From Spirochaetales bacterium (GTDB lineage Bacteria > Spirochaetota > Spirochaetia > DSM-2461), in contig JAFGXR010000070.1 in assembly GCA_016936555.1 (NCBI GenBank), positions 1 through 64,000 on the forward strand: DNA of 64,000 bases. Direction: 5' to 3'. The notes under the pieces are model-generated. The model had not been told where the DNA came from, made no database searches, and saw nothing but the letters and a program-made list of their open reading frames with translations. The position numbers and the translations under genes were made by a program. Below, piece by piece: positions 32,698 to 35,604 of this stretch (position 1 is its first letter; the number at the start of each line of letters is the position of its first letter).

Positions 32698-33759
32698 ATG
32701 AAAAAGATTCTTGCAATCAATCCCGGTTCAACATCCTCAAAAATAGGCTACTTTGAAGACAGAGAGTGCAAAGCATCCATTACAATAAGACATGATCAGG
32801 ATGAAATCGCCCGTTTCAAAACCATTGCCGAACAGTACGATATGCGCAAAACCGCCATAATGGACTGGATGGGGGAACAGAATATCGATGTGAAGGATCT
32901 CGATGGCGTCGTCGGCAGAGGCGGCCTTCTCAGACCGACTCACGGCGGAACCTTTATTGTCAACGATGCTATTATCTCCGATTTGAAAAGCGCCAGATAC
33001 GGAGTTCACGCCTCGAATCTGGGGGCTCTTATCGCCAGTGAGATTGCAAAAATGGCCGGGGTGGATGCCTATATCGTCGATCCCGTGACCACAGATGAGT
33101 TCGGTCCCCTGGCCCGCTATTCGGGCCATCCGGACATCAGCAGAGTCAGCGTCTTCCATGCCCTGAACCAGAAAGCATCGGCCAGAACGGTCTGCGAGAA
33201 GATCGGAAGGGAATACGAGGAGACCAATATGATCATAGCTCATCTCGGCGGCGGCGCGACCATTGCCGCCCATGAGCGGGGACGGGCCGTAGATGTCAAT
33301 CACGGCCTGGAGGAAGGACCGTTCACCCCCGAACGCTCGGGAGGGCTTCCCGTTCTGGAGATTATAAAAATGTCCTATTCCGGCAGATTCACAGAAGATG
33401 AAATGAAGAAAAAAGTGGTCGGCCGCGGCGGTCTGACCGCTTATATGGGCACATCGGATGTACAGGCTATTGTAAAAATGGCCGAAGAGGGCGATGAGAA
33501 AGCCGGAGAAGTTCTCGAAGCCATGATTTACCAGATCTGCAAGGAGATCGGTGCCTGTGCCGCGGTCCTGAAAGGGAAAGTCGACGCCATCGTCATTACC
33601 GGCGGAGTTGCATACAACAGCTTCGTTACCGATCGGATTGAGGAGAGAGTGTCCTTTATTGCACCGCTCCATATCCTTCCCGGTGAAAACGAACTGCTGT
33701 CCATGACCAGCGGTGTTCTGAGAGTTCTCGAGGGAAAAGAGAAAGCGGGTCAATACTAA
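32698..33759 (+). CDS. buk: Butyrate kinase
   Basis: ASKHA acyl kinase: ILAINPGSTSSKIGYFE, HLGGGATIAAHERGRAVDVNHGLEEGPFTPERSGGLP, ITGGVAYN. Confidence 0.92.
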   Translation: MKKILAINPGSTSSKIGYFEDRECKASITIRHDQDEIARFKTIAEQYDMRKTAIMDWMGEQNIDVKDLDGVVGRGGLLRPTHGGTFIVNDAIISDLKSARYGVHASNLGALIASEIAKMAGVDAYIVDPVTTDEFGPLARYSGHPDISRVSVFHALNQKASARTVCEKIGREYEETNMIIAHLGGGATIAAHERGRAVDVNHGLEEGPFTPERSGGLPVLEIIKMSYSGRFTEDEMKKKVVGRGGLTAYMGTSDVQAIVKMAEEGDEKAGEVLEAMIYQICKEIGACAAVLKGKVDAIVITGGVAYNSFVTDRIEERVSFIAPLHILPGENELLSMTSGVLRVLEGKEKAGQY

Positions 33760-33768
33760 TCATAAATC

Positions 33769-33797
33769 AAAAAAGGCGGCCTCCCGGCCGTCTTTTT
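33769..33797 (+). terminator. Rho-independent terminator downstream of buk
   Basis: GGCGGCC-TCCC-GGCCGTC followed by TTTTT. Confidence 0.85.
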
Positions 33798-33868
33798 AAC
33801 ACAATCCTAACATTTATCTAACACAAGCTTAACTATTCTTGAACAGTATGCTAACGTAAAATTAACAT
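33796..33868 (+). promoter_or_regulatory. Pho-box-like array: seven direct TAAC/GAAC half-sites at 11-bp period
   Basis: TAAC (GAAC once) at 33797, 33808, 33819, 33830, 33841, 33852, 33863; consensus (C/T)TAACA; -10-like TAAATT at 33873. Confidence 0.75.
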
Positions 33869-33960
33869 TATCTAAATTTATCCCGATTTACCATTCCGGC
33901 AATTGCTTTAGATTCCCTGTGAATCAAGTGGATTGGGGGTGAGAAATCCAAGGAGTTCAA

Positions 33961-35604
33961 ATGTTTATACTAATCGTTCTAGAAATTATCGGGTCGCTCG
34001 GGGTCTTCCTCTTCGGTATGAAGATTATGAGTGACGGTATTCAGAAAGCCGCCGGAGAAGGACTGCAGAATGTTCTGAACCGGATAACAGCCAACCGCTT
34101 CGTCGCTGTTTTCACCGGTTTTTTCATTACGGCCATCGTTCAGTCCTCTTCGGCGACAACGGTTATGGTTGTCGGTTTCGTCAATGCCGGCCTGCTGACT
34201 CTGACTCAGTCGATCGGCGTTATAATGGGGGCCAATATAGGTACGACCGTAACCGGATGGATTGTATCCCTTCTGGGATTCAAACTGAAAATTGCCGCTC
34301 TGGCTCTGGAGATCATTGCTTTCGGTCTGCCTCTTTATTTTTCGAAAAAGGAGACGAGGAGATACTGGGGTGAGTTTCTGATCGGTTTCGGTATACTTTT
34401 TATCGGTCTGGATTTCCTGAAGGAGTCGGTTCCCTCCGACAATCAGGCCCTTATCGATTTTATCAGCCCCTATACCAATTTCGGTTTCGGATCCATCGCC
34501 CTGTTTGTCATTTTCGGCGCGATTATCACCATTATCGTTCACTCCTCCAGCGCGTCCATGACCATCGTCCTGACAATGGCCGCTTCCGGACTGATCGGCC
34601 TCGATGTCGCAGCTGCCATGATCATGGGAAGCAACATCGGAACTACAATCGACGCTTACCTGGCTTCTATCGGTGCTACGACAAACGCCAAAAGAGCCGC
34701 GAGAGTCCATCTGCTGTTCAATGTCTTCGGGGTTGTCGTCATACTCATTGTTTTCCGGCCTTTCCTGAAAATGATCCAGTGGATAGTACCGGGAGACGAG
34801 ATCACAACAACGCTGGCCATGTTCCACACAATCTTCAACATAACCAACACATTGGTTTTCATCTGGTTCGTTCCACAGATAGCTCAATTGATCGAAAAAC
34901 TGGTTCCCGAGAAGGAAACGGAAGAAGATGCGAACGTCTACCACCTCGATTATTTCTCATCGATCATACAGGATACGCCTGAACTGAACCTCCTCCAGGT
35001 TCAGAAAGAAGTGGTGACCATGACAGAACTTGTGGAGGATATGTTCAAGACCTATCTGAACGTCTTCAGCAATCCCGACAAAAAAATGGGATCTGAAGTT
35101 GAAAAGCTGAGAGATCAGGAAGATTATTCGGATCAGATGCAGGAGAAGATCACAGCGTACCTCCTCGAGTGTTCCAAAGAGAATCTGAACGAATCGGGCC
35201 GGGATAAAGCCACGGCCATGATCCGGATTGTTTCGGAACTGGAAAGCATAGGGGACAGCTGTTTCAGCCTCATAATGCTCTCACAGAAAAAATATAAAAA
35301 GAAAATTCCTCTTCATGACAATGCCATTGATGAAATTATAAGTTACTCGAAATATGTTGACGAATTCCTGCAGTTTATCAAGCTGCATGTCAATAAACAT
35401 CTTTCCAGCGAAGATCTTGAGGAAGCCAATGTGCTGGAAGACAGGATCGACAGCTACCGGAACAAATTGCGGAAACAGGCGAGAAAGAAAATCATCGAAG
35501 GGGCCGATGTCAAAGGAGAACTTCTCTATATCGACATTATCCGCCATATGGAGCAGATCGGGGACTACTGTCTGAATATCGCACAGACATTGAGAAAAAT
35601 TTAA
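33961..35604 (+). CDS. Na+/phosphate cotransporter family protein with C-terminal PhoU-like domain
   Basis: LGVFLFGMKIMSDGIQKAAGEGLQ, QSSSATTVMVVGFVNAG, HSSSASMTIVLTMA; helical PhoU-like tail. Confidence 0.93.
   Translation: MFILIVLEIIGSLGVFLFGMKIMSDGIQKAAGEGLQNVLNRITANRFVAVFTGFFITAIVQSSSATTVMVVGFVNAGLLTLTQSIGVIMGANIGTTVTGWIVSLLGFKLKIAALALEIIAFGLPLYFSKKETRRYWGEFLIGFGILFIGLDFLKESVPSDNQALIDFISPYTNFGFGSIALFVIFGAIITIIVHSSSASMTIVLTMAASGLIGLDVAAAMIMGSNIGTTIDAYLASIGATTNAKRAARVHLLFNVFGVVVILIVFRPFLKMIQWIVPGDEITTTLAMFHTIFNITNTLVFIWFVPQIAQLIEKLVPEKETEEDANVYHLDYFSSIIQDTPELNLLQVQKEVVTMTELVEDMFKTYLNVFSNPDKKMGSEVEKLRDQEDYSDQMQEKITAYLLECSKENLNESGRDKATAMIRIVSELESIGDSCFSLIMLSQKKYKKKIPLHDNAIDEIISYSKYVDEFLQFIKLHVNKHLSSEDLEEANVLEDRIDSYRNKLRKQARKKIIEGADVKGELLYIDIIRHMEQIGDYCLNIAQTLRKI

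Follow-up and report, generated by a model that had tools for sequence, protein, structure and literature searches.

An array of seven TTAACA-type half-sites, repeated head to tail at exactly 11 bp, lies upstream of a Na+/phosphate cotransporter gene (nptA) in a spirochaete genome, and comparison of sequences makes it very probable that this array is a Pho-box operator through which a spirochaete PhoB/PhoR system switches on the cotransporter when phosphate becomes scarce. The same repeats precede the other phosphate-uptake genes of the genome, so the array is regarded as real and well explained. In kind the operator is an ordinary Pho box; what sets it apart is mainly its length and the view that it gives of a regulatory circuit seldom described in spirochaetes. 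New are the presence of seven half-sites, a consensus and a regulator from a spirochaete, and the repeated linkage of chemoreceptor genes to pst. The window, that is, the whole 64-kb stretch of DNA analysed, comes from contig C113 of an assembly of 4.73 Mb (G000; 134 contigs, 95% complete), and the closest named relatives of this genome are Spirochaetaceae MAGs. The features of the region are as follows; the half-sites and the ribosome-binding site are read directly from the sequence.

32698-33759: upstream acetokinase-family (buk-like) gene (PF00871)
33770..33797, + strand: intrinsic terminator of the buk-like gene (RNA fold -18.4 kcal/mol, z -6.27)
33796..33806, + strand: half-site 1, TTAACACAATC
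33807..33817, + strand: half-site 2, CTAACATTTAT
33818..33828, + strand: half-site 3, CTAACACAAGC
33829..33839, + strand: half-site 4, TTAACTATTCT
33840..33850, + strand: half-site 5, TGAACAGTATG, the sole GAAC unit
33851..33861, + strand: half-site 6, CTAACGTAAAA
33862..33872, + strand: half-site 7, TTAACATTATC
33866..33871, + strand: candidate -10 CATTAT, weak; 48 bp downstream of half-site 3 and inside half-site 7
33873..33878, + strand: candidate -10 TAAATT, weak; not at any offset of related promoters
33909..33914, + strand: candidate -10 TAGATT, weak; inside a block conserved with the nearest relative, G002 (CGGCAATTGCTTTAGATTCCCTGT)
33950..33955, + strand: ribosome-binding site AAGGAG
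33961..35604, + strand: nptA, Na+/Pi cotransporter with a C-terminal PhoU domain, 547 aa (PF02690, E 6e-60; PF01895, E 7e-18)

TAAC occurs at 33797, 33808, 33819, 33830, 33852 and 33863 and GAAC at 33841, with exact 11-bp spacing and the core consensus (C/T)TAACA, and all seven positions and the period agree with those of the earlier note on this DNA. Exact TAAC fills six of the seven slots, for which the chance expectation, with TAAC as frequent as observed, is about 1e-9 arrays per 64 kb counting both strands, and Markov-simulated windows (n = 60) never had more than three of the seven slots filled. When all tetramers were compared at periods of 5-40 in the window, only TAAC and AACA, which overlaps it, reached five or more slots, both at period 11. 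Scanning of the window gave no second such array, hence none at the ppk-pfk genes; ppk adjoins nptA on the opposite strand. Column identity is 1.0 in the AAC core and 0.19-0.52 in the spacer columns. An invariant AAC between free spacers speaks against recent tandem duplication and for selection acting on the half-sites.

Two features of the surroundings also agree with the earlier note. The two Pfam domains confirm that the downstream gene encodes a Na/Pi cotransporter, and the first half-site (TTAACA, 33796-33801) indeed overlaps the U-tract (33793-33797) of the strong buk terminator hairpin. An RNA element in the 5' UTR was considered and rejected, since folding was no better than that of shuffled sequences (z 0.29) and no Rfam match came near the gathering score.

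Elsewhere in the genome the motif was sought by exact-pattern searches rather than by a matrix scan. The pattern YTAACN6YTAACA has seven exact matches in the genome: three lie in the array, pstS and pstC each have one upstream, and two are elsewhere, so that the nptA, pstS and pstC promoters hold five of the seven. In addition, the 17-nt core TTAACACAATCCTAACA (half-sites 1 and 2) is identical to a sequence upstream of pstC, and a weaker four-slot array precedes a pst-linked chemoreceptor gene, itself located after phoU. The motif thus stands before other phosphate-starvation genes of the same genome, as is characteristic of Pho boxes. Over the whole genome the relaxed motif is no more frequent than in the reversed control, and therefore the evidence lies in location, not in count. 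A separate sequence, TTAACAACTTATTAACA, is present in all four members of the genus (G000:C101:46199; G001, G002 and G003) away from phosphate genes; in G000 it sits at the end of a threonine-synthase-like gene.

The earlier note had proposed that a matrix built from the seven units be examined for co-occurrence with pst and pho genes. Such a matrix, derived from the seven half-sites of the window alone, was scanned over 230 kb made up of 18 loci from relatives, mostly pst (including pst/phoB) loci. At a score of 10.5 or more it gave 22 arrays at period 11, whereas the reversed control yielded one and other periods 0-5; direct repetition of a conserved half-site at 11 bp, as expected of a Pho box, is thus enriched and other periods are not. 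Co-occurrence was found for 21 of these 22 arrays, which lie at most 160 bp upstream of pstS, pstC, phoB or a chemoreceptor gene, and the remaining one is at a contig edge directly downstream of phoR, where relative G001 has pstS next. At nptA itself, all four genus members carry an array, of 7, about 3 (one slot degenerate), 4 and 2 half-sites, respectively; its position is thus conserved, but not its length. The count of seven is peculiar to this genome compared with 2-4 in relatives, in keeping with the earlier remark that it is long. Conservation among relatives, which had been named as decisive, therefore holds for nptA within the genus and for pstS and pstC across several genera of Spirochaetia. 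An nptA array was not found in forward orientation in the sister genus g4, and genera outside the own genus mostly lack one. It looks as if phosphate control of pst is old and its extension to nptA recent or genus-specific.

Several further arrays and linkages came to light in these loci. A methyl-accepting chemotaxis protein gene adjoins the pst genes in several genera (G000 contig C76, L023:12457-14374; L175, L181, L183, L191 and L192); in G000 and G002 the gene carries a four-slot Pho-like array of its own, and the G000 copy has a -10-like hexamer at offset 48. This recurrent linkage of chemoreceptor and pst suggests phosphate-controlled chemotaxis. A three-half-site array is located directly upstream of a HAD-family (NagD-like) phosphatase-like gene (L236:2215-2247, G001 contig C400), which is possibly a further Pho-regulon member. 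Another three-half-site array (L239:4281-4292, G006) precedes the gene for a PhoR-like kinase, which in this relative stands apart from phoB.

A PhoB/PhoP-family regulator had been expected, and this expectation stands for the relatives, which encode a PhoB/PhoR pair, mostly beside pst; in the own assembly no such pair was detected, probably owing to an assembly gap. In G001 phoB and phoR are directly upstream of pstS, in G006, G007, G011, G012 and G020 phoB comes after phoU, and in G002 phoB has a two-site array of its own, 67 bp upstream. The kinases of G001 and G002 consist of sCache-like, HAMP, PAS, HisKA and HATPase parts, and the DNA-binding domain of PhoB matches the solved domain of E. 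coli PhoB (1gxp, E 2e-14). The best score of the relatives' PhoBs against the NCBIfam PhoB equivalog TIGR02154 is 255.3 bits (G011), below the cut-off of 296.2 bits, and these regulators are called PhoB-like by pst linkage, PhoR partner and grouping. In the tree they form one group, which contains none of the nine own-genome regulators tested. The analysis thus supplies a candidate PhoB/PhoR pair for the Spirochaetaceae.

No phoB/phoR orthologue is present in the 95% complete assembly of the source genome. In G002, phoBR lies within a stretch of about 53 kb (C1:487-540 kb; searched at 487-521 and 529-540 kb) that lacks a close counterpart in this assembly, and similarity to G002 returns, at 78% identity, at the first base of contig C59. 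Because the unmatched stretch ends where C59 starts, an assembly gap probably accounts for the missing phoBR and fits better than true loss, which is not proof; blastn anchoring of the putative gap by C44 synteny gave no match. Candidates within the assembly were rejected. The nine regulators scored against NCBIfam and placed in the tree include none that joins the pst-linked PhoBs, and a CreBC-like pair on C107 has nothing beyond a CreB score. A split regulator, with its receiver on C48 (49% identical to G001 PhoB) and its DNA-binding end on C110, was likewise set aside as PhoB. The ends of these two contigs (C48:1-350 and C110:1-315) carry the two halves of what is apparently a single response-regulator gene, with a kinase gene after it, and the contigs probably join. 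Furthermore, G000 contig C126 (L110:3286-3972) encodes an orphan OmpR-type regulator in which glutamate replaces the phospho-acceptor aspartate (ILIIETTF).

PhoB monomers are known to bind 11-nt units head to tail (PMC4415409). At nptA, PhoB dimers would similarly line up head to tail along one face of the helix, with each 11-bp half-site taken by one monomer, and would recruit RNA polymerase to a promoter that has no -35 box. E. coli PhoB contacts sigma-70. We infer that PhoB binds the array and that PhoB/PhoR in this way turns on nptA when phosphate is scarce. Seven units could hold about three dimers and one monomer, and compared with the usual 2-4 they may make control stronger or more switch-like; the extra units may increase sensitivity or steepness, or may intrude on the promoter. 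An array of this length lends itself to asking how the response depends on the number of PhoB sites.

Ten of the 22 related promoters share a fixed geometry, in which a -10-like TAxxxT follows the first core half-site at exactly 48 bp; other offsets occur 0-3 times each, and 48 bp corresponds to four 11-bp slots plus 4 bp. For testing, a Pho-box consensus can be given as (T/C)TAACA repeated every 11 bp, the -10 hexamer being 48 bp away from the first half-site. Upstream of nptA a consensus promoter scan found no promoter, and TAAATT at 33873, which had been proposed as the -10, is not supported in that role and is at no offset of the related promoters. CATTAT is the only hexamer at nptA that obeys the 48-bp rule. 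The assignment of the nptA -10 among CATTAT, TAAATT and TAGATT is ambiguous.

This geometry bears on a sub-model of the PhoB operator, not exclusive of it, in which the array would reach into the core promoter with its last two or three half-sites and would both activate and limit nptA. Low PhoB-P would fill the upstream sites and high PhoB-P would cover the -10. The single -10-like hexamer at the family offset of 48 bp, CATTAT at 33866-33871, does lie inside half-site 7, and the 2-4 half-sites of related promoters end before the -10; however, two other weak -10 candidates are downstream of the array, and this dual mode is considered rather unlikely. If true, nptA would be under a phosphate switch of graded or band-pass type, in a phylum for which a recent survey identified no PhoPR (PMC13170248).

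Less likely still is that another OmpR-family regulator binding 11-bp direct repeats, rather than PhoB, reads the array. The genome has at least ten other OmpR-type regulators, and a different 11-bp array, made of GTAACAATTGG units, precedes an ABC transporter gene beside its own kinase/regulator pair, so related repeats serve other regulators in this genome. However, the GTAACAATTGG array differs in consensus and is not called by the half-site matrix, whereas the motif of the window specifically marks pstS, pstC, phoB and nptA in several genera, including phoB itself in G002. The GTAACAATTGG-type array has three to four units (G000 contig C4:11060-11300, L024) and is placed before a gene for a 2-aminoethylphosphonate/iron-type ABC transporter, which diverges from the histidine kinase and OmpR-type regulator genes. 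Finally, a chance or neutral microsatellite-like tandem array, with which the AT-rich intergenic location and the variable length between close relatives would agree, is extremely improbable and already refuted by the conservation pattern, since the spacers are only 0.19-0.52 identical around an invariant AAC, the chance expectation is about 1e-9 and the same core marks other phosphate genes.

Reading the array as a PhoB operator allows comparison with known Pho systems; a literature search on spirochaete Pho boxes found nothing relevant, with subscription journals mostly outside its coverage. PhoP boxes of B. subtilis are TT(A/C/T)A(C/T)A at 11 bp, usually as four half-sites. The present array resembles them in its TTAACA-type half-site and 11-bp head-to-tail repeats, and the relatives' PhoR resembles B. 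subtilis PhoR in its extracytoplasmic sCache-like and PAS domains; the differences are seven half-sites versus the usual four and the spirochaete host. SphR boxes of Synechocystis, CTTAACCT plus a 3-bp linker with at least three in tandem (PMC1906773), share the TTAAC core, the 11-bp period and pst targets, but differ in repeat number, and the regulator is divergent. The E. coli Pho box consists of two 11-nt units (PMC4415409) with the -10 located 10 bp downstream (PMC1906773). It is similar in having 11-nt direct-repeat units upstream of the -10 at fixed spacing and an autoregulated phoB; its TGTCA core is replaced here by TTAACA, and the E. coli-type CTGTCAT is not found in the array, the core of which is (C/T)TAACA. 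By its sequence the half-site is closer to those of B. subtilis PhoP and cyanobacterial SphR than to that of E. coli.

Moreover, long arrays upstream of phosphate transporter genes were already known: the PhoP operator of Streptomyces pitH2 combines four core with two ancillary 11-nt units (PMC7866108), although the core there is GTTCACC and the transporter is Pit, not NptA. The same type of transporter, NptA with a PhoU domain, is phosphate-regulated by a PhoB-family system, PhoPR, in Staphylococcus aureus, and a seven-site operator is not among the features reported there in the available part of the source (PMC13170248). That 2026 survey places Spirochaetota among the taxa without an identified PhoPR and allows that divergent homologues were possibly missed (PMC13170248).
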